Assembly: GCF_030345715.1 (NCBI RefSeq)
Contig: NZ_JAUASX010000020.1
Coordinates: 1-64,000 of the forward strand
DNA: 64,000 nucleotides
Direction of reading: 5' to 3'
Source of the DNA: Solimonas sp. SE-A11
GTDB lineage: Bacteria; Pseudomonadota; Gammaproteobacteria; Nevskiales; Nevskiaceae
The notes below the pieces were generated by a model, which had not been told where the DNA came from, made no database searches, and saw only the letters and a program-made list of their open reading frames with translations. A program made the position numbers and the translations under genes. Shown here in pieces: positions 5,372 through 63,885 of the stretch (position 1 is its first letter; every line of letters starts with the position of its first letter).

Positions 5372-6709
5372 ATGCCGTTTTCCGATCTGGGCCTTTCCGA
5401 GGCCCTGTTGCAGGCCGTTGCCCAGGAAGGCTACACCGAGCCGACCCCGATCCAGGCCCAGGCGATTCCCGTGGTGCTGTCCGGGCGCGATCTGCTGGCC
5501 GCCGCCCAGACCGGCACCGGCAAGACTGCCGCATTCACCTTGCCGTTGTTGCACAAGCTCGGTCTGACCCCGCCCGACCCCAATGGCACCCATCGTGTCC
5601 GCACCCTGGTGCTGGTGCCGACGCGCGAACTGGCGGCCCAGGTGGCCGAGAGCGTGCGCACCTACGGCAAGCACCTGCGCCACCTGCGCACGGTGATGGT
5701 CGTGGGCGGCGTCAACATCAACCCGCAGATCGACAACCTCAAGCGTGGCTGCGACATCCTGGTTGCCACGCCGGGCCGCCTGCTGGACCTGGCCGGCCAG
5801 CGCGCCGTGCACCTGGGCAAGGTCGAATTCCTGGTGCTGGACGAAGCCGACCGCATGCTCGACATGGGCTTCATCCATGACATCAAGCGCGTGCTGGCGA
5901 TGCTGCCGCAGAACCGCCAGAACCTGATGTTCTCGGCCACCTTCTCCAAGGAGATCCGTAGCCTGGCCGAGGGCCTGCTGAAGAAGCCGCACACCATCGA
6001 CATCGCGCCCCGCAACTCCGCCGCGGAGACCGTGACGCAGCGCGTGGTGCACACCGACAAGGCGCAGAAGGCCGACCTGCTGGCCTACATGATCAGCAGC
6101 GGAAACTGGCGCCAGACCCTGGTGTTCACCCGGACCAAGCATGCCGCCAACCGCCTGGCCGAGAAGCTCGCCAAGTGGGACATCACCACCGCGGCACTGC
6201 ACGGCAACAAGAGCCAGAATGCCCGCACCCGTGCCCTGGCCGACTTCAAGTCCGGCGCCGTGCGCGTTCTGGTGGCTACCGACATCGCTGCCCGTGGCCT
6301 GGATATCGACCAGCTGCCGCACGTGGTGAACTACGAGTTGCCCAACGTCCCCGAGGACTACGTGCATCGCATCGGCCGCACCGGCCGCGCCGGCGCCGAG
6401 GGCGAGGCGGTGTCGCTGGTGTCGCCGGAGGAACGTGGCGAGCTCAAGGACATCGAGCGCCTGCTGAAGAAACCTGTGCCGGTCATGACGGTCGAAGGCT
6501 ATACGCCGCGTCCGCAGGCGCCGGAGCCGCCGCGCCCGCCGCGTCCGCCCCAGGGCCAACGCCGCCAGGCTACCGTGCGGGGCCGCGACCAGGGTTCGGA
6601 GAAGCGTCCGCAGCAGGCGGGGCCGGGCGGCCGCAAGTCCTGGCAGACCACCGGGTCGCCGCACAAGACGGCCGAACACCTGGCGGGCAAGAGCCGCAAG
6701 GTTCACTGA
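5372..6709 (+). CDS. rhlE: DEAD-box ATP-dependent RNA helicase RhlE
   Basis: A 445-residue RNA helicase that unwinds short duplexes in ribosome assembly and RNA turnover. All motifs are visible in order: Q motif (TPIQAQAIP), AQTGTGKT (motif I), PTRELAAQ (Ia), TPGRLLDL (Ib), [13 protein letters not shown] (II, DEAD), SATFS (III), [20 protein letters not shown] (V) and [10 protein letters not shown] (VI). The C-terminal 70 residues are a basic Pro/Arg/Gln-rich tail, typical of RhlE and used for RNA binding. AGGAGG precedes the ATG. It is followed by a small RRM protein gene, a plausible functional partner in RNA handling. Confidence 0.93.
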
Positions 6710-12570: not shown

Positions 12571-12719
12571 GGGTCGGAAGCGGCAAAAACGGGGTAAGTG
12601 GCCTTCCAGCTTAGCAAAAACCGGCCGGCGGCCGGCCCTGGACTTGCGCGGAGAAGGCTGAATCACTAAACTCCGCGACCTTTCTGGCCTCCTCCAAGGG
12701 TTGCCAGGGCTGTACCGAG

Positions 12720-12735
12720 GTTGCCTTCGGGCAAC
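12720..12735 (+). promoter_or_regulatory. TTCG-capped hairpin in the rplM leader
   Basis: A perfect six-base stem GTTGCC-TTCG-GGCAAC lies 31 bases upstream of the rplM start. Small leader hairpins ahead of ribosomal protein genes can mediate feedback control, but no known leader family is recognisable here. A TATAACT sequence just after it could instead be a -10 box. Confidence 0.35.
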
Positions 12736-12766
12736 TGAACTATAACTACCGATGTGGAATGGAACG

Positions 12767-47785: not shown

Positions 47786-48502
47786 ATGTTGCAATCGAAG
47801 TTGAGCGAACGTGTGGAAAGTCAGGACTGGCCGAGCATCCTGTCGGAACTGGATGCCCAGGGCTGGTCCTGCCTACCCTCACTGCTGGCGCCGGTGGAAT
47901 GCACGGCTCTGGCGGCCCTGTACGACGAGCCGGCGCGTTTCCGCAGCCGCGTGGCGATGGCGCGCCATGGCTTCGGCCAAGGCGAGTACCAGTACTTCCG
48001 CTACCCGCTGCCGCCGACGGTGGCGGCGTTGCGCGAGTCGCTGTACCCGCGGCTGGCGCCGCTGGCCAATCGCTGGAACGAGACCATGGGGCTGGCGGCG
48101 CGCTACCCGGAAGACCTGCAGGAATTCCTGCAGCGCTGCCACCAGGCGGGCCAGCAGCGGCCGACGCCGCTGCTGCTGCGCTACGGACCGGGCGACTACA
48201 ACTGCCTGCACCAGGACCTCTACGGCGAGCAGGTATTCCCGCTGCAGGCGGCGGTGCTGCTGTCGCAACCGCAGCGGGATTTCCAGGGCGGCGAGTTCGT
48301 ACTGACCGAGCAGCGGCCCCGGCGGCAGTCGCGCGTGGACGTGGTGCCGCTGATGCAGGGCGACGCCGTGATCTTCGCCGTGCATCACCGGCCCGCAGCA
48401 GGTAGCCGGGGCAGCTATCGCGTCAACCTGCGCCATGGCGTCAGCCGCCTGCGTGCAGGGCATCGCCATACCCTCGGCATCATCTTCCATGACGCCAGTT
48501 GA
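47786..48502 (+). CDS. 2-oxoglutarate/Fe(II)-dependent oxygenase
   Basis: A 238-residue protein. The metal motif HQDLYGEQVFPLQAAVLLSQ gives the HxD pair near residue 137, and the second histidine is in VNLRHGVSRLRAGHRHTLG or HHRP just before. GGEFVLTEQRPRRQSR is typical of the prolyl-4-hydroxylase-like fold. The substrate could be a protein, nucleic acid base or small molecule; none can be chosen. Confidence 0.82.
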   Translation: MLQSKLSERVESQDWPSILSELDAQGWSCLPSLLAPVECTALAALYDEPARFRSRVAMARHGFGQGEYQYFRYPLPPTVAALRESLYPRLAPLANRWNETMGLAARYPEDLQEFLQRCHQAGQQRPTPLLLRYGPGDYNCLHQDLYGEQVFPLQAAVLLSQPQRDFQGGEFVLTEQRPRRQSRVDVVPLMQGDAVIFAVHHRPAAGSRGSYRVNLRHGVSRLRAGHRHTLGIIFHDAS

Positions 48503-53237: not shown

Positions 53238-53939
53238 ATGAACGAACTGGTGGGTTACGAGCTGCAGGACGGCATCGCCACGCTGACGATGAACAACGGC
53301 AAGGGCAATGCGATCTCGCCGGCGATGCTGGTCGCGCTCAATGCCGCGCTGGATCATGCCGACGCCGATCGCGCGGCGGTGTTGCTCACCGGCCGCGAGG
53401 GCATGTTCTCCGGCGGCTTCGACCTGGCCGTGATGGGGGCGGGCGGTCCGCCGGTACGCGAGCTGGTCATCGGCGGCTTCCGGGTGGCCGAGCGCCTGCT
53501 CAAATTCCCGCGCCCCGTGGTGATCGCCGCGGGCGGCCACGCGCTGGCCATGGCGTCCTTCCTGCTGCTCAGCGGTGACCTGCGCCTGGGCGCCGAGGGC
53601 AGCTTCAAGATCGGCGCCAACGAGGTGGCCATCGGTCTGACGATGCCCTACGCCGCCACGGAAATCTGCCGCATGCGCCTGGCCATCACGCATTTCGGCC
53701 GTGCCGTCACCCATGCCGAGATTTTCTCGCCCACAGGCGCAGTGGAAGCCGGCTTCCTCGACCGCGTCGTGCCGCCGGAGCAGCTGCTGGCCGAGGCCAA
53801 GGCCGCCGCGGCCGGCCTGCTCAAGCTCAACCGCCCCGCGTTCGCCGCCACCAAGCTGCGTGCCCGTGCCCCGGGCCTGGCGGCGCTGCGCACGGCGATC
53901 GAGGCCGACGAAACCGAGTTCCGCAAGATGTTCGGCTGA
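53238..53939 (+). CDS. Enoyl-CoA hydratase/isomerase (crotonase) family protein
   Basis: A 233-residue crotonase-fold protein. ATLTMNNGKGNAISPAML, GREGMFSGGFDLAVM (CoA-oxyanion loop) and VVIAAGGHALAMASFLLLSGDLRLGAEG are the conserved blocks. The usual catalytic glutamates of hydratases are not obvious (FKIGANEVAIGLTM), so an isomerase or hydrolase activity is possible. It is the last gene before the lasso-peptide-like locus. Confidence 0.85.
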   Translation: MNELVGYELQDGIATLTMNNGKGNAISPAMLVALNAALDHADADRAAVLLTGREGMFSGGFDLAVMGAGGPPVRELVIGGFRVAERLLKFPRPVVIAAGGHALAMASFLLLSGDLRLGAEGSFKIGANEVAIGLTMPYAATEICRMRLAITHFGRAVTHAEIFSPTGAVEAGFLDRVVPPEQLLAEAKAAAAGLLKLNRPAFAATKLRARAPGLAALRTAIEADETEFRKMFG

Positions 53940-54015
53940 GCGCCAGCGCGATGCCGGGGATTGCCGAAGACGGGCGTGCCGCATGGATTGTGCGGCTCCC
54001 GCCTGAGCATGGTTC

Positions 54016-55293
54016 ATGAGCGGCATCGCCGGCGTCGTCGGTCTGGAGGGTGCGCCACAGTCCCAGGAATTGCTGGAGCGCATGGTCGCCGCCAGGCCTC
54101 CTCGCCCGGCCGACGGGGCCGGGCACTGGCATGCCGGGCCCGCCCTCATGATCCGCTGCCATCGTCCGGTCACGCCGGAATCCCCGGTCGAGCGCCAGTG
54201 CCTGCACCCCGGGCCGTTCGAGGATTTCTCCGGCTTGTCGGACGCCGATCATGTCGACCGTTTCAACGAACTGTTCGACCAGGCCCTGGCATCCAGCCTG
54301 CGCAGCGCGACGCCCGTGGCGGCGCAGCTGTCGGACGGACGGAACTCCTCGGCCATGGTCTACCGGGCGACGGAACTGCATCGCGCAGGCCGGATCGCGC
54401 ACCCGGTCACCGCGATCTCGGCGTGGTTCCCGGACCGGGTCCACGACGAGGCGCAATGGAGCGAATGCGTCGAGTCGCACCTGAGCATCGAGGCCCGGAC
54501 GGTCATGTCGGGACCTGACGACCTCGAACAGGCCGAGGCCTGGACGGCCCGTTTACTGCAGTTGCCGCTGCATCGCAATGCCTCTCACTGGAGCATCACC
54601 TGCGAAGCCCTCTGCCGTCAGGGGACTCGGGTCGTGCTGACGGGCGAAGGCGGCGACGACTAGCCGCGGGGTTCGCGGGCACATTGGCCCGACATGTTCC
54701 TGCGGACAGTGGCCGGCATTGCTGCGCGAGAACTGGGCGGAGAGCGATTACCTGCCGGCCTGTCGGATCGCTGGCGGCAGGATGCACCATCCCTGGCGGG
54801 TTCGAGCCTGTCCCAGCAATGGCGCTATGCGGCCTACGTCGTCCCGACCCGGCACGTCCTGCTCGACAACGTCATCGCCCATGTCGATGCCCAGGGTGTC
54901 GAGGTGCGGCATCCATTTCATGACCTGAGGCTGACGCGCTTCCTGATGGGTGCCGCCGGTGGCATGTTGCGCAGGGGCCAGCAGCCCAAGCACCTGCTGC
55001 GCGAGGCGATGCGCCAGAGGCTGCCAGAGGCCGTGCGGCCGCGGCAGATGAAGACCGACTTCAGCATGCCGATCGTCGAGGCCGTGGTGCGGCGCCTGCA
55101 GGAGCACGGTGTGAACCAGCCCGCGGGGCGGGAGTGCCGGATGGCTGGATGGGCCGCTGCTGGAGGACTGCCACAGGACGCTCCAGTCCTGGCAGGACGG
55201 CACCGCTATCGCGCCGGCGCGAATGGCGGCGCTGCGGGCATGTTGGGGGGCGTGTCCACCGACCTGTGGTTGACGCAGGCTTTCAGGCTGTAA
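54016..55293 (+). pseudogene. Lasso-peptide cyclase (asparagine-synthetase-like, LasC) pseudogene
   Basis: The beginning MSGIAGVVGLEGAPQSQELL up to VERQCL matches the N-terminus of lasso cyclases. Most of the glutaminase-like domain is then missing: homology resumes at HVDRFNELFDQALASSLRSATPVAAQLSDG. The pyrophosphate loop expected as SGGLDSS reads SDGRNSS. GEGGDD is followed directly by TAG (54661-54663) where Trp is usual, yet the same frame continues as GSRAHWPDMFLRTVAGIA and HPFHDLRLTRFLMG. Near the end the homology changes frame at about 55125 and back near 55245 (DGPLLEDCHRTL, then VSTDLWLTQAF). About 425 codons remain against roughly 600 expected. Inactive as it stands. Confidence 0.85.
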
Positions 55294-55330
55294 GCTCCTG
55301 CGGCCTTACGGATATCTTCAGGGAATGCAC

Positions 55331-55609
55331 ATGCAGACAGATCAGATGCGGGTAGCCCGCGCGGCCAAAGCCCTGGGAGCGCGCATCAACGACGAGGTGG
55401 TCATCCTCCAGGTCGATCGGGGCACTTATCTGAAGCTGAATTCACACGCCTCCGCCATCTGGGACCTGCTGGAGGAGCCGACCACCCTGGGTCAACTGTG
55501 CGAGCGCCTGCAGGAGCGGTATGCGGTTGCGCCGGAAACCTGCCGCGCAGACGTGGTGGAGGTGCTGGAGCAGATGCGTCTGGAGTCGGTCGTTGAGACA
55601 GGGACTTGA
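55331..55609 (+). CDS. PqqD-like lasso leader-binding protein (B1/RRE)
   Basis: A 92-residue winged-helix RiPP recognition element that binds the precursor leader and presents it to processing enzymes. GARINDEVVILQVDRGTYLKLN and SHASAIWDLLEEPTTLGQLCERL are the PqqD-fold strands and helices, and CRADVVEVLEQMRLESVV the third helix. The ATG at 55331 has GGGA six bases upstream; one two codons earlier lacks spacing. It lies 108 bases before the precursor gene, the expected neighbour. The associated B2 peptidase is not found. Confidence 0.88.
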   Translation: MQTDQMRVARAAKALGARINDEVVILQVDRGTYLKLNSHASAIWDLLEEPTTLGQLCERLQERYAVAPETCRADVVEVLEQMRLESVVETGT

Positions 55610-55717
55610 GTGGGTCACAGGCGGCACTGCCCAAGGGGTATGCGAGCAGGCATCGCATCTGGTAGCGTAAGCGGGTGAGTCCTTCATAGGCTCTCCAAGC
55701 AGACGACGAGAAAACAC

Positions 55718-55891
55718 ATGTCCCTCCTCAAGAATTCCGAGCGTGCTCCGACTTCCGACCTGCAGGCCCCGATCAGCGCCGACACCCGGCAGCCCTGGGC
55801 CAAGCCGGAGATTGCCGTGGTCATGCCGGTGACCCAGACGCAGGGCAACGGTGGCGCCGGCTTCGATTTCGCCTCTGAATCCTCCGTTTGA
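55718..55891 (+). CDS. Putative lasso peptide precursor (LasA)
   Basis: A 57-residue peptide gene. The leader contains W27-A-K-P30-E-I32, resembling the YxxPxL motif that B1 proteins recognise. T41-Q42 precede G43, fitting the rule of Thr at the penultimate leader position. The predicted core is GNGGAGFDFASESSV (15 residues): Gly1 and Asp8 would close an eight-residue macrolactam ring GNGGAGFD, leaving a Ser-rich FASESSV tail. Serines at core positions 11, 13 and 14 could be targets for the kinase encoded 28 bases downstream. Cleavage site and ring are inferred from rules, not shown. Confidence 0.8.
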   Translation: MSLLKNSERAPTSDLQAPISADTRQPWAKPEIAVVMPVTQTQGNGGAGFDFASESSV

Positions 55892-55919
55892 TGTGATCCC
55901 GCCGGCGATCCGTTAGCCG

Positions 55920-56849
55920 GTGGCATTTGCATACCGTTTCGCCGGTAGGGCGCTGTTTAGCAGCGTCCCCCTGGTCGGCGTGTTGCCGCTCGCTGAGGGC
56001 AACCTTCTGGCTGGCCAGTCCATTCAGGTGTCGATGGACCTGGGTGACTTGAGCGAAGCGGGCCCTGTCCGGTTTCGCTGGCGGGGCGGTTACGACCTGA
56101 CCCTGCGGCTCCTGGGGTCCGACTGGTTGTTTACCTCTGGCGACTGCAACCACTATCTGGTCAGCGCTGCGGGCGACCGTATCCGCTGTGCCGGAAATCC
56201 GGGGAGCTTCGAGTTCTCGGACGTGCTGGTGCGCCGCATCCTGCCCCGCATTCCGCTGCTGGTGGATGCCACGCTGGTGCACGCAGCCGCCATCGGTGAT
56301 GCCACTGGCGGCATCCTGATGGCTGGGGCCTCCGGGGCGGGCAAGTCGACACTGTCCGCCGCCCTCTCCCATCGGGCTGGCTGGACCCTTCTCAGCGACG
56401 ATCTCTCCGTACTGCGCTACGAGGAGGGACCACTCCTCTATCCGGCGGCCAGCGGCGTTTGTGTCTGGGGTGACTCGCAGCAGGCATTGGGATTGCCGGC
56501 GGAACGGTGCCGCTCCATGCCGGGCTATGACGGCAAGGTCTGGTTCGGTGCAGATGTGGGCGGCCGTCCGCCCGTTGTCGTGCCACTGCGGGCCTTCGTA
56601 TCGCTGGCTCGCTCCGATGACTGCCACGCGCCGCGACTGCAGCCGCTTTCCTCCAGCGATGCCTTTATCGATGCAACGCGCCAGTTGATCCTGTTCGATC
56701 CTTCGGACCACGCGGCCAGCCGGTTGCCCGAGCATTTCGCGCGATTGGGCAGGATCATCGAGTCGGTCGCCTGCTATTCCCTGATATACCCCTCCAGTTA
56801 CCGCGCGATCCAGGAGATCGATAGTTTGCTCAGGTCCCTGCTGCGCTAA
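55920..56849 (+). CDS. HPr-kinase-like lasso peptide kinase
   Basis: A 309-residue protein of the HprK-related kinases found in RiPP clusters. The P-loop is GILMAGASGAGKSTLSAAL at about 137-155, followed by LLSDDLSVLRYEEG with the expected aspartates. The N-terminal 120 residues are not the HprK sensor domain of classical enzymes. GTG start. In paeninodin- and pseudomycoidin-type clusters such kinases phosphorylate the C-terminal serine of the precursor; here Val is last and Ser is penultimate. A 18-bp palindrome near 56870-56888 follows and may end the transcript. Confidence 0.83.
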   Translation: MAFAYRFAGRALFSSVPLVGVLPLAEGNLLAGQSIQVSMDLGDLSEAGPVRFRWRGGYDLTLRLLGSDWLFTSGDCNHYLVSAAGDRIRCAGNPGSFEFSDVLVRRILPRIPLLVDATLVHAAAIGDATGGILMAGASGAGKSTLSAALSHRAGWTLLSDDLSVLRYEEGPLLYPAASGVCVWGDSQQALGLPAERCRSMPGYDGKVWFGADVGGRPPVVVPLRAFVSLARSDDCHAPRLQPLSSSDAFIDATRQLILFDPSDHAASRLPEHFARLGRIIESVACYSLIYPSSYRAIQEIDSLLRSLLR

Positions 56850-56868
56850 GCAGGAATCGGGCCGTCCT

Positions 56869-56888
56869 TCTCCTCCGGCCGGAGGAGG
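56869..56888. terminator. GC-rich palindrome after the kinase gene
   Basis: CTCCTCCGGCCGGAGGAG is a perfect palindrome 20 bases after the kinase stop codon, without a T-run. It marks a likely break between the kinase gene and the flavoprotein gene. Confidence 0.45.
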
Positions 56889-56953
56889 GAGGCGGGGCAG
56901 GGAGGGCCTATCGTGCAGTCAGAGCCCATCAGGGCCGAGCCGAGGAGAACCGC

Positions 56954-58432
56954 ATGTCAGACCAGCCCGCCTATTCCCGCAGCCGCCCCTGCCGTTTCAC
57001 CGAGGTGCTGCGCTGGGATATTGAGACCGATGTCGCGGTGGTGGGCTTCGGCGCGGCGGGTGCCTGTGCTGCCCTGGAAGCGGTGCGCGCGGGAGCCAAG
57101 GTCGTGCTGCTGGAAACCACCTCCGGCAGCGGCGGCACCTCGGCGCTGTCCGGGGGCGAGATGTACGTCGGCGGCAGCGGCGGCACGCCGCAGCAGCAGG
57201 CGGCCGGATTCCATGACGACACCGAGGACCTTTATCGCTACCTGCTGATGGCGGGCGGTCCCGATGCGGACGCCGCCAAGGTGCGGCTCTACGCCGACAA
57301 CAGCCTGGCGCACTTCGAGTGGATGCAGGCGCAGGGGCTTGTCTACAAGAACAGTTTCATCCCGCAGCGCATCGTCGAGCCCTTCACCGATGACTGCCTG
57401 ATCTGGAGCGGCAGCGAGGAGGCTTGGCCCTTCGCGGAGAGCGCCAAGCCTTGTCCTCGCGGGCACACCCCGCAATGGATGGGCCTGGGCGGCGGGCGCT
57501 ACCTGATGGACCGGCTGGCGGAGCGCGTCGCCGAGACGGCGGTGGATGTGCGCTACGACACCCGTGCGGTCGCGCTGATCGTCGACGACTCCGGCCGCGT
57601 CCAGGGCCTGGTGCAGCGACGCGACGGGCAGGACTCATTCTTGCGCGCCACGCGCGGCGTGGTGCTCTGCGCGGGCGGCTTCATCATGAACCAGGACCTG
57701 ATGCGCCGGTACGCGCCGCAGTTGATGCGCGCCAACATGCCCATCGGCACGGTGGACGACGGCTCCGGCATCCTGCTCGGCCAGAGCGCGGGCGGCCATG
57801 CCATCCACATGGACCAGGGTTTCGTGACCCTGCCCTGGTATCCGCCTGAGCAGTTGATCAAGGGCATCTTCATCAACGCGCGTGGCCAGCGCTTCATCAA
57901 CGAGGACTGCTACCACGGCCGTGTCGCGCAGCATGCGCTGCAGCAGGCCGGCGACCGCTTCTGGCTGCTTCTGGACCAGGAAATCTTTGCCGAGCCTGAA
58001 TTCGGGCAGTTCGCCAAGATCACGATCGGCGCCACCGGTGACAGCTGGCAGGAAGTGGAACGCGAGCTGGAGTTGCCGGAGGGCGCCCTGGTATCCACCG
58101 TGGACTTGTACAACCGCCACGCCGCGCAGGGACATGACCCACTGTTCCGCAAGGCGGCCCGGTGGCTGCGCCCGCTGACTCAGGGCCCCTTCGTCGCGCT
58201 GGATTGCCGTATCGACCATGCGGCCTACTTCAGTTTCACGCTGGGTGGCCTCGACACACTGCCGACGGGCGAGGTGATGGACGCCACGCGCCGGCCCGTG
58301 GCGGGGCTCTATGCCGCCGGGCGCACGGCCTGCGGCATGCCGCGCTGGGGTGCCGGCTACAGTTCCGGCATGTCGTTGGCCGACGCGACCTTCTTCGGGC
58401 GGCAGGCGGGGCTGACCGCCGCCCGCTGCTGA
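56954..58432 (+). CDS. FAD-dependent 3-ketosteroid dehydrogenase-like oxidoreductase
   Basis: A 492-residue flavoprotein of the fumarate reductase/3-oxosteroid dehydrogenase family. The N-terminal FAD motif is DVAVVGFGAAGACAALEA at about 27-44 with TTSGSGGTSALSGGEMYVGG following; the C-terminal FAD segment is GLYAAGRTACGMPRWGAGYSSGMSLADATFFGR. Loss or gain of a double bond in a steroid ring is the likely activity. It sits between the peptide kinase and the exporter, with about 105-base gaps on both sides, and is not a known lasso tailoring enzyme. It may be an insertion into the locus or an unusual tailoring step. Confidence 0.82.
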   Translation: MSDQPAYSRSRPCRFTEVLRWDIETDVAVVGFGAAGACAALEAVRAGAKVVLLETTSGSGGTSALSGGEMYVGGSGGTPQQQAAGFHDDTEDLYRYLLMAGGPDADAAKVRLYADNSLAHFEWMQAQGLVYKNSFIPQRIVEPFTDDCLIWSGSEEAWPFAESAKPCPRGHTPQWMGLGGGRYLMDRLAERVAETAVDVRYDTRAVALIVDDSGRVQGLVQRRDGQDSFLRATRGVVLCAGGFIMNQDLMRRYAPQLMRANMPIGTVDDGSGILLGQSAGGHAIHMDQGFVTLPWYPPEQLIKGIFINARGQRFINEDCYHGRVAQHALQQAGDRFWLLLDQEIFAEPEFGQFAKITIGATGDSWQEVERELELPEGALVSTVDLYNRHAAQGHDPLFRKAARWLRPLTQGPFVALDCRIDHAAYFSFTLGGLDTLPTGEVMDATRRPVAGLYAAGRTACGMPRWGAGYSSGMSLADATFFGRQAGLTAARC

Positions 58433-58537
58433 CCCCTATGGGCAGACCGGTGGCCAAGCCCTAAACTGCCGGACCCAACAAACTCCCAGACTCCTGGCCG
58501 CAGGAATCCCTGCCCGGCAGGCCCGCCTCAAAGGTTC

Positions 58538-60337
58538 ATGAGCATCCCGACTTCCGCCGAAGAGGCCCAGGAATCGCACCGGCGACCGCTGATCGCGCTG
58601 CTGCGTGAAATCCGGGACTTCGGGCGGCGCAGGGTCATGGTGGTCAGTGTGCTCATGCTGACAGTGGCGATACTGGAGGGCAGTGGCCTGATGCTGCTGG
58701 CGCCGATGCTGAGCCTGGTCGGCGTGGCGCCCGGGCCAGCGGCTACTGCGGGTCCCCTGCAGGCGATGCTCGGTAGCCTGGACCGGTCCCTTGCCTTGAC
58801 CTGCATCCTCCTGGCGTATCTCGCGTTGATCGTGCTGTATTCAGGGCTGTCCTGGTGGCGTGACGTGGCTTCCACAGAGCTTCAGCAGGGTTTTGTCGAT
58901 CACCTGCGCCTGCAGCTGTACCGTGGTATCGGTGAGGCCGAATGGTCCTTCCTGGCACGCACGCACAGCGCCGAACTCAGTCATGCATTGAACGTCGATC
59001 TTGGCCGTATCAGCGTGGGGCTCACCTCCCTCTTGCAATTGCTGACCACGGCCGCGATGGCCGTCGCCTATCTGGTCATCGCCTTCAGCCTGTCTGTGCC
59101 GCTTACAGCCATGACCCTGGGCATCGGTTGCGCGCTGCTGCTGCTCCTGCGGCGGAATCATCGCAATGCCCATGCAGGGGGCTATCGCCTGACCGCCGTC
59201 ATGCAGAGGATGCATGGCGAGGTCAGTGAGTTCCTGGCCGGGCTCAAGTTGGTCAAGAGCAGCAACGTCGAGCGGGAGACCTTGCGGCGCTATGAGGGGC
59301 GTCTGCAAGCGGCGCGACGGGAGGCGGTGGATTTCACCCGCAAGCAGGCCATATCACGCAGCTTGCTGCGCATCGGAGGCGCCATGGCACTGGCGGCGCT
59401 GACCTATGTGGCTCTCGTGGTGATCCTCATCCCACCCGCATCGATGCTGGTGTTGGTGTTCATATTTTCGCGCTTGATCCCCATGTTCTCGGCGATGCAG
59501 CAAACCTATGAGCGGCTGCTCTACAGCCTGCCCGCCTACACGTCCTTTGTTGGGATGCGCCAGGCCTGTGCGGCGGCGGTCGAGCCCTCCGGCATCGATC
59601 CCGCTATGTCCTTCACGTCGGAGCTGCGGCTGGAGAACCTGCACTATCGCGCTGCTTCGGGGGAGGGAGACATTCTCCAGGCGATTACCCTGGTGTTGCC
59701 GTTCCGTCATACCGTGGCGCTGGTTGGACCATCCGGCGCCGGCAAGAGCACTTTGGCGGATATCATTGGCGGTCTTCTGGCTCCAACCTCAGGAAAGGTG
59801 CTGGTCGATGGCCGTGAACTGATCGATCGCAGAGCCTGGCGCAGCCAGGTGGCCTATGTATCCCAGGACAGTTTCCTGCTCAATGCCAGCGTTCGAGAGA
59901 ACCTGCTTTGGACGCATCCTGGAGCAACGGAGCCCCAACTATGGACGGTGCTCGAGCAGGCAGCGGCAGGCTTCGTGCGCGATCTGCCGCAGGGACTTGA
60001 TACGGTACTCGGTGAGAGAGGAGTGCGCCTCTCGGGGGGCGAGCGCCAGCGCCTGGCAATTGCGCGCGCCTTGCTGCGGCAACCCCGTCTGCTGATCCTC
60101 GACGAGGCCACCAGCGCATTGGATCGCGACAATGAACAGCGCATCCAGGATTCCATCGCCCGCCTGCATGGGCAACTGTCGATCCTGGTCATCGCGCATC
60201 GCATCGGCACGGTCAGGGATGCCGACTGCATCCATGTCCTTGAGGGCGGACGCATCCGTGAAAGCGGCAGCTTCGAACAGATGATGGCGAATGGGCCGGG
60301 CTACCTGGCCGGGCTCGCGGGAGCGCTCCATGCGTGA
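58538..60337 (+). CDS. ABC exporter (lasso peptide transporter, LasD)
   Basis: A 599-residue fused permease-ATPase. Membrane helices span about residues 25-320; the ATPase carries LVGPSGAGKSTLADIIGGLL (Walker A), VSQDSFLLNASVRENLLW (Q-loop), RLSGGERQRLAIARALL (signature), LLILDEATSALD (Walker B) and VIAHRIGTV. In lasso clusters the D protein exports the mature peptide and gives self-immunity. It overlaps the glycosyltransferase gene by eight bases, so D, the transferase and the nucleotidyltransferase are one operon. Confidence 0.9.
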   Translation: MSIPTSAEEAQESHRRPLIALLREIRDFGRRRVMVVSVLMLTVAILEGSGLMLLAPMLSLVGVAPGPAATAGPLQAMLGSLDRSLALTCILLAYLALIVLYSGLSWWRDVASTELQQGFVDHLRLQLYRGIGEAEWSFLARTHSAELSHALNVDLGRISVGLTSLLQLLTTAAMAVAYLVIAFSLSVPLTAMTLGIGCALLLLLRRNHRNAHAGGYRLTAVMQRMHGEVSEFLAGLKLVKSSNVERETLRRYEGRLQAARREAVDFTRKQAISRSLLRIGGAMALAALTYVALVVILIPPASMLVLVFIFSRLIPMFSAMQQTYERLLYSLPAYTSFVGMRQACAAAVEPSGIDPAMSFTSELRLENLHYRAASGEGDILQAITLVLPFRHTVALVGPSGAGKSTLADIIGGLLAPTSGKVLVDGRELIDRRAWRSQVAYVSQDSFLLNASVRENLLWTHPGATEPQLWTVLEQAAAGFVRDLPQGLDTVLGERGVRLSGGERQRLAIARALLRQPRLLILDEATSALDRDNEQRIQDSIARLHGQLSILVIAHRIGTVRDADCIHVLEGGRIRESGSFEQMMANGPGYLAGLAGALHA

Positions 60338-61178
60338 AAGGCTGATAAAGCCGCTTGGCCGCTATTTCGCTGCCCACCCGAGGCTCAATCCTTGGGTTGC
60401 TCCATTCTTCAATGGCCTGGTGAAGGCGCAGCTGGGCGTGGTCAGGCTGGCTGACCGCATGCGTGCGGCTCATGGCGGCAATGACGCCTTGCTGGACCAG
60501 TTGACGCTGGTCATCAAGACCTTCGAGCGGCGCCCCTTGCTGCAGCAAATGCTGAGCAGCATCCGGCGCCACTATCCACGCATTCACATTGTCGTGGTCG
60601 ATGACAGCTGTCATCCCGAGCCGATCGACGGTGTCGAATACGTCACGCTGCCGTTTGACAGCGGCGTCTCGGCGGGACGCAATGCCGGGCTCGCCCGGGT
60701 GCGTACGCCCTACACCATGATCCTGGACGACGATTTTGTTTTCTATAGTGGCTCGGACCTGCTGAGATCGCTCAGGCGCATCGCCGCCGAGCCCCGCATC
60801 GACATCCTCGGAGGCATCGTCATCACCCTGCCGATGATGGAGTGGAACGACTCCAGCCGGACTCCGATTTACAAGTCGCAAGCCATTGCGCCCAGCGGTG
60901 AACTTGGCGGACTGCCGCTGCGTGCCAAGGTGCCCAATTTCTTCATCGCCCGTACGGCAAGGCTGGCCCAGGTTGGCTGGGACGACCGCCTCAAGCGTCT
61001 CGACCACCTCGACTTCTTTACCCGCGCGGATGGCGTACTACGTACGGTTCTGGATCCCAGTCTGCGTTGCCTGCACCCCAAGTCCCTGTTCGACCGTCAT
61101 TACCTCAGCTTCCGGCTGGACTATGCGGCGGACAGCGAACTGCTGCGGAAGCGCTACCCGGGCGTGGAGACAGAGTGA
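60330..61178 (+). CDS. GT2-like glycosyltransferase
   Basis: A 282-residue GT-A fold enzyme. LTLVIKTFERRPLLQQML starts the fold, HIVVVDDS and NAGLARVRTPYTMILDDDFVFYSG contain the nucleotide-sugar and metal-binding aspartates (DDD at about 140). The ATG lies inside the exporter gene, and the next gene starts within its stop codon, so coupling is tight. In this locus it may attach sugar to the peptide; a cell-surface role is the alternative. The first 60 residues are a basic amphipathic segment that could touch the membrane. Confidence 0.82.
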   Translation: MRERLIKPLGRYFAAHPRLNPWVAPFFNGLVKAQLGVVRLADRMRAAHGGNDALLDQLTLVIKTFERRPLLQQMLSSIRRHYPRIHIVVVDDSCHPEPIDGVEYVTLPFDSGVSAGRNAGLARVRTPYTMILDDDFVFYSGSDLLRSLRRIAAEPRIDILGGIVITLPMMEWNDSSRTPIYKSQAIAPSGELGGLPLRAKVPNFFIARTARLAQVGWDDRLKRLDHLDFFTRADGVLRTVLDPSLRCLHPKSLFDRHYLSFRLDYAADSELLRKRYPGVETE

Positions 61179-62380
61179 GCCTGGACCACAAGGCAGCCGC
61201 AGAGCCGGCACGTCGGCTGCTGGCGCAACTGGTGCGCAGCCGTTGGACGGCAGAGCGTCTGGACGAGGGTCTGCTGGCCGCCGTCAGGCCCATGGATTTC
61301 TTCCAGGCCCTGCGCCTGCATGGCTTGGCAGGCTTGATGGAGCTGCGGCATCGGCAGCAGATGCTGCAGTTGCCGCAGGATTTGTATGCGCAGGTAGCGG
61401 AGATTCGGCGGCGAGGCACCTTCCAGGCCTTGCAGCAGGCCGGTGCTTGCCTGGAGGTAGCCGGCGCGCTGGAGCAATCAGGCATCCCTGTGCTCCCTCT
61501 CAAGGGGGTGGCGCTCTCCTGGCTGCTGTATCGCGATATCGGCGCACGCCAAAGCGGCGATATCGACATGATGGTCGATACGGATCATGTCCTGCCTGCC
61601 ATCGAGATCATCCTGCGTCTGGGCTATTCGCCTGCCACGTCACTGCCACAGCGCTCGTTGCACTGGCGCGAGTGGATGCGTAGCGTGCATCACATCAACT
61701 TCGTTCATCCGCGTGGGTTATACCTGGAGTTGCACTGGCGCACCGATCCGCTGAAGGGAACGTCCCTGCCGAGGCTGGCCTCCCTGCTGCCGCAGCTAGG
61801 GCGTATCGATGAAGGTCCCTTGCGCGGTCTGCGGCAACTCCCTGCGGTGCTGCAGCAGCGATCCCTCGCCAGCCACGCCTGTCGCTCACGGTGCATGCGC
61901 TGGAAATGGGGCTATGACCTGTTGGAAATCGTGAGTGTCCAGCAAGGCGGCGCCTCGCCCTGGAGATCCGGCCTCGCCCTGGAGCAGGATTCGTACACCC
62001 GGCACACGCTGGCTGTCATGGCGGCGCAGCTGGAAGCGGATTCGGGGCCGAGGCCTCTATCGGTCAGACTGACCAGCCGCGCCGCGACGGTGGAGCAGCG
62101 CGAATGGATGAGCAACAAGCCGGATGGGCGGCAGCGCACTTTCGTTGACGGCCTGCTGCTGCATGCTGGTGCCTGTGCAGCCCTGGCGGGGTGGCCGGAA
62201 CGCTGGGAGTACTTCCGCTGGGTGGTTACGCGCACATCGCCGGAGGTCGGTGAGCACGCATATTCACTGGCCGCGCATGCCCCCTGGCTCGCGCCGTTGC
62301 TGCGCATATTGCCGCCACTGCGACGCGTCGGGCGCAGGCTGGCGAAGCCATGGCGCGGGCGAGGAACTCGTATCCCTTAG
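61175..62380 (+). CDS. NTP_transf_5-type nucleotidyltransferase of RiPP clusters
   Basis: A 401-residue protein with a GTG start overlapping the glycosyltransferase stop (GTGA). The signature is IPVLPLKGVALSWLLYRDIGARQSGDIDMMVDTDHVLP, where the DIDMMVD aspartates form the nucleotidyltransferase metal site at about residues 129-135. YLELHWRTDP is the conserved later block. Members of this family accompany lasso clusters with peptide kinases; in pseudomycoidin biosynthesis one adds hexose to the phosphorylated serine. Here it could extend the phosphate placed by the kinase. Confidence 0.83.
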   Translation: MSLDHKAAAEPARRLLAQLVRSRWTAERLDEGLLAAVRPMDFFQALRLHGLAGLMELRHRQQMLQLPQDLYAQVAEIRRRGTFQALQQAGACLEVAGALEQSGIPVLPLKGVALSWLLYRDIGARQSGDIDMMVDTDHVLPAIEIILRLGYSPATSLPQRSLHWREWMRSVHHINFVHPRGLYLELHWRTDPLKGTSLPRLASLLPQLGRIDEGPLRGLRQLPAVLQQRSLASHACRSRCMRWKWGYDLLEIVSVQQGGASPWRSGLALEQDSYTRHTLAVMAAQLEADSGPRPLSVRLTSRAATVEQREWMSNKPDGRQRTFVDGLLLHAGACAALAGWPERWEYFRWVVTRTSPEVGEHAYSLAAHAPWLAPLLRILPPLRRVGRRLAKPWRGRGTRIP

Positions 62381-62424
62381 CAGGCCCTCCGGGCTTGCAT
62401 GCCATTCAGTACGAAGCGCCGGGA

Positions 62425-63885
62425 TTAGCGCCGCCGCTGCAGCAGCCCAAGCCCCACTAGTGCCGCCAGCAGGAATATTGGCAGCGCTCCACCGCCGCTG
62501 CCTCCACCTGAAGTGTCGGTGAAAGGATCGACGGTCGATGGTGCCGGATTGGTGCCGCCGCGACCGACGAGCGAGATCGTGCCGGTGTTGTCCGGGTCGA
62601 GCGCGCTCTTCAGTGAATTGCCGAGAGCCTTTGCATCGCCGCCGGTCCATGAGAGGTCCAGCCGCCCGAAATAATCGGAACCCGTATTGGGCTTGTCACC
62701 GTCGCATCTGGCCGAGCCGCCGGACAGGGTGCCGACGATCTGTCCATCCTGGTTCCACAGCGCGGCCCCGGACGATCCGGCTTCCGTGGTGCCTTTGTTC
62801 CAGCTCACTTTCCAGGCATCCACCGTGAAGCAGTTTTTGCTGCGGTCGCATATCTCCATGTCAGCCTGCTTCTGTGGGCTGCTCGAATAGATGCTGATCT
62901 TCTTGTCGTCGCCGCTGGGGTGATGGATCGCTGCCCCCGAACTGGGAGCGGTCCCGCTGGCATCCCAGCCCGCGAAATAGGGATTGAAATCGGAGGCCGA
63001 GTTGCCGTTCTCGCTGGAGAGCAGACGCAATAGCGCGAAATCCGAAGTGGTGCTGCGGGAGACCACTTCGGCAACGGCAAGGTTTTGACCGACAGACCCT
63101 TCGGTGCCGCTACCGCAGCCGCTACGATTGACGTTGAAGTAGGCGCGGATGCTGGACGGCGAGGATTGCTGATCGAATCGGCAGTGATTCGCCGTAAGGA
63201 CGTAGGGCGTCCCGTCGCGGCGCACGTTGTCGACCAGCGTACCCGTGCAGACCGCGCTGTTGCCGATGGTCAGCAGCACTACCGAACGCACCTGCGAAAG
63301 CCAGGGATTGGCGGTGGTGCAGGCGACATCGATATTGCAGGCTCCGCTGCCCTGCTTGTTGAAATAACCCTTGGCGGTGCCAGGCATGTTGAAGGCGCGA
63401 TAGCCATGCTGTGCCTCGGCAATGCGCAGCGACGCATGCCCCTTTTCTGCTGCCGGTAGTCGCAGCTCCAGCAATGCATGGCTGCCGCGCACCAGGGGTA
63501 ACCACAGCGTGCCGCTACTGTCGGCGCCAAAAGGACCCTGAATGTCGCCACTGTCCTCGCCGATCCAGCGCAACTCGCTGCCGGCCGGCAGATGCAGGTC
63601 TTCCAGGCGCAGGGACAGCGACTCCGCGCCGTTGGAGTCGATACCCAGGCGCCAGCGCGCTTGGGAAGCGGCCGGTTGGTCCCAGATACCATCGCTCAAG
63701 CGCAGGTCGGTTGCCTGCGGCACGGCGTAGCGCAGGGGGTCTTGCTTGGCATCCTCCGTGGCCTCTTGCACCTGCACAATCGAAAGCACGTGGCGTGGCG
63801 GTGCTTCCGTTGCCAGGGCGGGCAGGGATAGGAGCAGGCCAATCATCAGCATGCCCGGCAGAAGGGCGTGGCGGCGCAGGGTCAT
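62425..63885 (-). CDS. Secreted trypsin-like serine endopeptidase with GlyGly-CTERM tail
   Basis: A 486-residue protease of the lysyl-endopeptidase-like group. The signal peptide is MTLRRHALLPGMLMIGLLLS with cleavage after PALA. A propeptide and beta-rich region occupies about 25-180. The catalytic triad is His in YVLTANHC, Asp in TTSDFALLRL and Ser in AGSSGAAL. The C-terminus DTSGGGSGGGALPIFLLAALVGLGLLQRRR is a GlyGly-CTERM signal processed by rhombosortase and type II secretion. It converges on the lasso locus; no maturation role is indicated. Confidence 0.9.
   Translation of the reverse strand: MTLRRHALLPGMLMIGLLLSLPALATEAPPRHVLSIVQVQEATEDAKQDPLRYAVPQATDLRLSDGIWDQPAASQARWRLGIDSNGAESLSLRLEDLHLPAGSELRWIGEDSGDIQGPFGADSSGTLWLPLVRGSHALLELRLPAAEKGHASLRIAEAQHGYRAFNMPGTAKGYFNKQGSGACNIDVACTTANPWLSQVRSVVLLTIGNSAVCTGTLVDNVRRDGTPYVLTANHCRFDQQSSPSSIRAYFNVNRSGCGSGTEGSVGQNLAVAEVVSRSTTSDFALLRLLSSENGNSASDFNPYFAGWDASGTAPSSGAAIHHPSGDDKKISIYSSSPQKQADMEICDRSKNCFTVDAWKVSWNKGTTEAGSSGAALWNQDGQIVGTLSGGSARCDGDKPNTGSDYFGRLDLSWTGGDAKALGNSLKSALDPDNTGTISLVGRGGTNPAPSTVDPFTDTSGGGSGGGALPIFLLAALVGLGLLQRRR

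Follow-up and report, generated by a model that had tools for sequence, protein, structure and literature searches.

The window, that is, the whole stretch of DNA analysed here, has 64,000 bases and corresponds to bases 1-64000 of contig C13 in a genome of 4.94 Mb and 41 contigs. Two inserted blocks, with a resident FAD gene between them, hold the following features:

53942-56867 (+), inserted block 1 (2.9 kb, approximate edges) with the cyclase pseudogene, B1, A1 and K
54016-55290 (+), lasso-cyclase pseudogene (C), two open pieces of an asparagine-synthase-like gene upstream of B1
55325-55609 (+), B1, a discrete PqqD-like RRE (PF05402, 73.5 bits, cut-off 23.4)
55718-55891 (+), precursor gene A1, ATG start, 57 aa, a coding-like frame with homologues
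55796-55813 (+), putative RRE-binding motif WAKPEI (WxxPxI) in the A1 leader, with W at -16
55844-55888 (+), predicted A1 core GNGGAGFDFASESSV, with Gly1 at 55844 and Asp8 at 55865
55920-56849 (+), K, an HprK-like kinase with His-Lys-Asp-Asp residues present
58411-62578 (+), inserted block 2 (about 4 kb; right edge uncertain, from the end of N to about 62579) with D, GT and N
58538-60337 (+), D, an MsbA-like ABC exporter
60324-61178 (+), GT, a family 2 glycosyltransferase (putative start; the listed ORF begins at 60291)
61067-62380 (+), N, an NTP_transf_5 protein (true start probably later)

A1 has the PqqD-like B1 (55325-55609) on one side and the HprK-like kinase (55920-56849) on the other, just where the sequence-only reading had placed it. 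Compared with the congeners, the DNA of the window ceases to match at about 53941/56868 and again at 58410/62579 or farther on. In three of three congeners the hydratase, FAD and trypsin-like genes are adjacent, and tblastn shows no intervening lasso gene. The FAD enzyme, encoded downstream of the kinase, has a 3-ketosteroid dehydrogenase (4at0) as its best solved relative. In the genome G003 (L164) the hydratase and FAD genes, between which the window has block 1, are separated by about 0.9 kb of other, additional DNA, hydrolase-like by eye; hence, block 1 is not the only DNA that this gap has received. A promoter scan of 53900-58600 found 0 promoters against 0.4 expected, an uninformative outcome. 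Farther upstream, 47786-48502 encodes an Oxygenase-NA family protein (PF09859, 9.6e-88).

The A1 frame is coding-like in its codon usage, with a score of +16.7 bits or 0.29 per codon (0.24 for the kinase, 0.43 for B1). The remaining five frames over the same stretch score from -43.6 to +4.1, and the overlapping reverse ORF at 55684-55932 scores -9.2. A strict precursor pattern selects one ORF in the window, A1, and none in 60 simulated 64-kb sequences; a looser pattern gives one match in the window and nine in the 60 simulated sequences. The strict pattern was devised after A1 had been seen and cannot serve to detect such precursors in general, since it fails on the related precursor A2. Over 502,322 bases of loci it returns 13 rows, corresponding to four separate genes, namely A1 and three precursors in the lasso region of contig C1.

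The leader motif WAKPEI fits the RRE motif [Y/W]xxPx[L/V/I/A/F/Y] that the available part of PMC13381572 gives for lasso leaders. Position -2 carries Thr, as is usual for lasso precursors (rarely Ile, Val or Ala), and so it does in both direct homologues described below. Gly1 and an acidic residue within positions 7-9, here Asp8, are invariant across the three A1-type cores, and the predicted ring thus comprises eight residues, Gly1-Asp8. All of these features had been located correctly from the sequence (55796-55813; 55844; 55865). The earlier remark that the spacing from the motif to Thr is one residue short also holds against the BsfA family, in which YxxPxL is given at -17 to -12 (PMC10368454, part of the text): the BsfA leader has Y at -17, whereas the A1 leader has W at -16. 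Both direct homologues share this shorter spacing.

The evidence that A1 is a gene of a family comes from two direct homologues, which a tblastn against six fetched loci gave at 2.9e-12 and 4.9e-12 and which both lie in genomes of another class:

L140:8848-9000 (-), direct homologue in G837, core GNGGAGFDFASEASN, 13/15 identical to GNGGAGFDFASESSV
L142:8358-8507 (-), direct homologue in G654, core GNGAAGFDFASEQS, 12/14 identical to GNGGAGFDFASESSV

The three A1-type precursors have Thr(-2), Gly1, Asp8 and W(-16)xxPxI in common. In the core codons A1 differs from the two homologues by 8 and 5 silent changes against 2 and 2 changed residues. Each homologue adjoins an RRE gene (B1), an HprK-like kinase and an intact lasso cyclase, with open cyclase frames of 663 aa (L140) and 647 aa (L142). 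In both cassettes C and B1 lie on one strand, and K and A on the opposite one. B2 directly precedes C in G837. In G654 the A1-type cassette consists of C, B1, K and A, and a B2 search of that genome gave only its contigs C2 and C6, none on the contig of the A1-type cassette; its C6 is the A2-type cluster of that genome. The sequence-only reading had proposed a lasso precursor and a search for its homologues beside B1/kinase genes. Together with the codon score, the near-identical cores bear this proposal out, and three more distant homologues were found in addition; all of them, direct and distant, belong to kinase-containing clusters with intact cyclase frames.

G654 was reached through the RRE family NF033536, present in 32/398 genomes of the phylum. 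Precursor profiles gave five places in 4/397 genomes of the family of G654 (two A1-type, two A2-type, of which one was itself a profile row, and one other core in G1070), and 1/385 genomes of its class, G654 itself. A sequence search with the A1 precursor over 61 genomes, its own included, gave nothing convincing outside its own genome; the best foreign row (0.025, L002) was dismissed as lying inside a longer unrelated ORF, and the other weak rows were taken as chance. A plasmid search matched two distant kinases and gave no match to the G837 precursor. None of the family models in the NCBIfam and Pfam searches matches or names A1, and the core strings do not occur in the full text of the open papers searched.

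It could be argued that A1 is a chance ORF between two genes, since it is short, is unmatched by any family model and has no close match in the 61 genomes, own included. However, a near-identical core in the same gene context of another class, the silent codon changes in the core and the positive codon score are hard to reconcile with this, and the homologues led us to reject the chance reading, to which we give practically no credence. A1 is almost certainly a lasso-type precursor. Judged by its sequence, it probably belongs to a conserved, kinase-associated lasso peptide family.

B1 is the discrete RRE that a complete lasso cluster contains. Its best solved relative is TbiB1 (1.1e-7), and with 58.4 bits it does not reach the 80 bits that NCBIfam sets for lasso_PqqD_Bac. 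The window kinase likewise stays below its curated NCBIfam cut-off (56.1 of 200 bits). The kinases of the three A1-type cassettes are 37-42% identical, and all carry the HKDD columns, as in kinases of the paeninodin type, for which the accessible text of PMC9266682 gives His-Lys-Asp-Asp as the kinase motif. The kinase tree groups the kinases of the two homologous cassettes first (0.94); the G985 kinase branches next to this pair (0.86), and the window kinase after it (0.68). The G985 kinase belongs to an A2-type cluster, and this clade therefore holds both precursor types. Kinase matches occur in 45/369 genomes of the class, the best outside its own genome having 49 bits. A genome-contig search with the window kinase alone gave no relative; with the alignment of the two kinases it gave three loci, and a scan of these showed no A1-like precursor.

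The residue that would be phosphorylated can be narrowed down from the cores. A1 ends in Val, and the homologues end in Asn and Ser, so that A1 has no C-terminal Ser of the paeninodin type. Ser3 of the Bsf type is absent as well: position 3 is Gly in all three A1-type cores. Hence, the kinase either uses another residue or does not act on these cores. The hydroxyl residues conserved among the three cores are Ser11 and Ser14, and we infer that one of these two tail serines would be the likeliest site. The calculated [M+H]+ of the A1 core is 1401.59 in linear form, 1383.58 after the loss of water on ring closure and 1463.55 for the ring with one phosphate.

Several other lasso-like regions were seen beside kinase matches. 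On contig C1 of the same genome, L018 holds three precursors, at 5717-6067(-), 6292-6588(-) and 12589-12765(-), each having T(-2), G1, a Glu at position 8 or 9 and Ser as its last residue (ends ..GKALTQIKEYGSAYAPS, ..GKVFKNSPEGGTIIGPS and ..GKLNSIKEYTDTVTLVPYGAS), together with a cyclase, B1, B2 and a kinase match. G506 has, at L132:10279-10959(-), a tandem array of three precursor-like ORFs next to kinase and cyclase matches; their leaders read WxKPxL, and their basic tails end in GS. A precursor-like ORF with YxxPxL (L069:1751-1918, ..KLTGQVGSGATGAVFFG), on a contig of Candidatus Troglogloeales, lies between a radical-SAM-like ORF, labelled by eye, and a kinase; no cyclase match was found on this contig by tblastn.

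The cyclase gene of the window is damaged. In NCBIfam, the lasso cyclase model comes closest to its first piece (59.4 bits), and its second piece gives 33.9 bits with asparagine synthase and 31.2 bits with lasso cyclase. Both fall short of the curated NCBIfam cut-off of 525 bits; the Pfam cut-offs are reached for PqqD and Asn_synthase. The lesions were read against five intact cyclases. About the first 60 residues are kept, and the N-domain lacks about 146 residues (76-221 in G985 numbering). The ATP-binding loop reads SDGRNS, where all five intact cyclases have SGGLDS. An in-frame TAG stands at 54661-54663, the same place where the whole-genome family search flags 1 TAG. Further on about 53 residues are missing; the match then shifts to a second frame over 55139-55246 and returns to the first one for roughly the last twelve residues.

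A plain frameshift was rejected because the frame is regained after 55246. Sequencing error was rejected as the cause of all the damage, given the two missing stretches, the changed ATP loop, the stop and the shifted stretch. A count of both truncating lesions (0.03), the sole count favouring retained function, was dropped, since the frameshift is compensated and truncates nothing. We note that both missing stretches are in frame, the shifted stretch regains the frame and a single stop is left; for a dead gene, the frame is kept strikingly well. With the ATP-binding loop lost, C is dead as a cyclase even if the stop is read through, and we have hardly any doubt that the local cyclase is dead.

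The window cluster thus has no intact macrolactam cyclase. B2 is absent as well: a PF13471 search of the same genome gave three matches, on C1, C17 and C29, and none on C13. Together, the cyclase pseudogene and the absence of B2 mean that the cassette alone cannot close a macrolactam. The working cluster implied by the sequence-only reading is therefore rejected. The absent B2 was not accepted as proof of death, as the contig with the A1-type cassette of G654 likewise yields no match in the B2 search. Pseudomycoidin synthesis, in work from 2019 ascribed to Zyubko, reportedly proceeds in the absence of both leader and peptidase. A cassette that has lost only B2 is not necessarily dead; one that has lost its cyclase is. 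Other cyclase-like genes of the same genome lie on C17, C1, C29 and C6, the last known from tblastn and the precursor scan only.

Of these, the cluster on C17 contains a precursor of a sister type, which we call A2:

L017:10969-11145, A2 precursor on contig C17 of the same genome
L121:6545-6709, A2-type precursor on contig C6 of G654
L141:8272-8469, A2-type precursor in G985, with one extra residue

A2-type cores follow the pattern G.S....DG.SNLT, with Ser3 and Ala(-2), and their clusters have an intact cyclase and B2 in or adjoining them. A1 and the A2 type have in common a related leader, Gly1, Asp8, Ser11 and a kinase of the same tree region. Unlike A1, the A2 type has Ser3, a tail like DG.SNLT, Ala(-2), an intact cyclase and B2; in A2 itself, the leader W lies at -18 instead of -16. 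Ser3 is the site phosphorylated in BsfA (PMC10368454, in the part available) and likewise in LppA (PMC13381572, also in part). On C17 an intact cyclase frame of 634 aa is accompanied by two PqqD-like genes, a kinase, A2 and a B2 (lasso_biosyn_B2, 86.4 bits, cut-off 33). Its glycosyltransferase is a 43-aa remnant upstream of an NTP_transf_5 gene, and the window exporter D has no tblastn match in the 20 kb of L017 examined.

Some further genes of this region were noted. Transposase-like fragments, ORFs read by eye, lie beside the glycosyltransferase remnant (L017:5326-6528). The cluster also holds an SGNH-domain acyltransferase, a 2OG-Fe(II) oxygenase and a Stf0-type sulfotransferase (L017:7637-13234), and sulfotransferase matches recur in L121 and L141. 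A further precursor-like ORF of the C-terminal-Ser type, YRRPDVRLLSEIGSTSAKFDGASERATEYGSLGPS, lies at L017:4557-4763(-), about 9 kb from the cyclase gene.

We suggest that C13 carries a cyclase-dead cassette with a conserved, kinase-associated lasso precursor of a predicted eight-residue Gly1-Asp8 ring, which would be matured in trans or else be a relic. This overall reading is, in our judgement, about evenly balanced between right and wrong. Its steps would be as follows.

Step 1: B1 would bind the WxxPxI leader and present the A1 precursor to the kinase.

Step 2: The kinase would act on the linear A1 precursor, at tail Ser11 or Ser14, in the way described for PadeK in the accessible part of PMC9266682.

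Step 3: The B2 of C17 would cut after Gln(-1) of A1 in trans, and the C17 cyclase would then close the Gly1-Asp8 ring, also in trans. If this supply fails, the cassette would be a relic with its ring-closing step lost.

Step 4: D may export the product.

That maturation in trans really happens is a plausible suggestion with somewhat less than an even chance. C17 encodes both missing activities, an intact cyclase and B2; it is itself left with a glycosyltransferase remnant and no exporter match in L017; and a similar split is seen in G654, where the A1-type cassette has no B2 and B2 lies on other contigs. However, W is at -16 in A1 and at -18 in A2, and A1 may not be accepted by the enzymes of C17. 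RREs are able to tell leaders apart (PMC13381572), which speaks against free sharing. The G985 kinase of an A2-type cluster stands nearer the two homologues (0.86) than the window kinase does, a mismatch between precursor type and kinase clade that also weighs against our explanation.

A further difficulty concerns block 2. D, GT and N are 64, 74 and 55% identical to their counterparts in a lasso region of G003, in which N is followed by B2; in the window no B2 comes after N. The regions around the two direct homologues gave no match to D, GT or N. Being unmatched there and like another cluster type of the genus, these three genes may not belong with A1. The G003 lasso region (L020:9216-13243) also has sulfotransferase-like and hydroxylase-like ORFs, labelled by eye, and a precursor-like ORF, PWVTPTLRVLAMPQTKGSGKTSTPTPMEGTMYGPS, which lacks Asp/Glu at 7-9 when the Gly that follows QTK is taken as residue 1.

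The same cassette may instead have come by transfer, lost its cyclase and now be decaying, with A1 unmatured and the open genes merely undamaged so far. The cyclase pseudogene, the lack of B2 and the inserted DNA, missing from the site in three of three congeners, all agree with such a relic. Against it stand the open A1, B1 and K, a kinase with its four catalytic residues and a core that keeps 13/15 and 12/14 residues, although a recent loss would still be compatible with these. We consider decay a real possibility, rather below an even chance. Tentatively, and with a similar degree of belief, we also propose that production of a phosphorylated lasso peptide is split over two acquired, reciprocally damaged clusters, C13 giving precursor, RRE, kinase and adjoining exporter and C17 giving cyclase and peptidase; were the cyclase not shared, A1 would be a step towards a linear phosphopeptide.

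The cyclase-less cassette might also make a linear (poly)phosphorylated peptide, like the LPP systems of Bacillota. Its open genes B1, A, K, D and N equal the LPP core set minus its peptidase. However, LPP leaders use Tyr and another motif, with phospho-Ser3 and a SipW-like peptidase, whereas A1 has Trp and Gly3 and keeps Gly1 and Asp8 as for ring closure; we find this reading improbable.

An open precursor, RRE and kinase next to a dead cyclase make the trans action of lasso enzymes between clusters testable, and the same cassette makes testable the turn of kinase-type lasso systems into linear phosphopeptide systems such as LPP. The core is nearly fixed across two bacterial classes and the kinase only about 40% identical, which points to a fixed target or role.

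Compared with known systems, the cassette shares with LPP an RRE, an HprK-like kinase, an NTP transferase, an MsbA-like exporter and the lack of a working cyclase; LPP differ by their SipW-like peptidase, Tyr leader motif, Ser3 and restriction to Bacillota (PMC13381572, in the part accessible). The LPP leader motif YxxPxVLxHQxIxFETxxS is absent from A1. According to the same partial text, paeninodin RREs favour Trp and LPP RREs Tyr, which counts for a lasso and not an LPP leader in A1. With the paeninodin/pseudomycoidin type A1 shares the His-Lys-Asp-Asp kinase, the NTP transferase and the Trp-type leader; precursors of that type end in a phosphorylated Ser, whereas A1 ends in Val (PMC9266682, excerpted text). 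With the Bsf type (BsfA/BsfK) it shares the [Y/W]xxPx[L/I] leader, the Gly1-Asp8 ring predicted for A1, a discrete B1, an HprK-like kinase and an NTP transferase; the two differ at position -2 (Ile in BsfA, Thr in A1), at position 3 (phospho-Ser in BsfA, Gly in A1) and in their enzymes, BsfA having C and B2 genes of its own and A1 a dead cyclase without any B2 (PMC10368454, from the text available). A kinase-associated lasso precursor is a kind already known, and the A1 family and its cyclase-less state here are new to the sources searched. Any phosphorylation site in the A1 family would depart from both published rules seen, the C-terminal Ser and Ser3.
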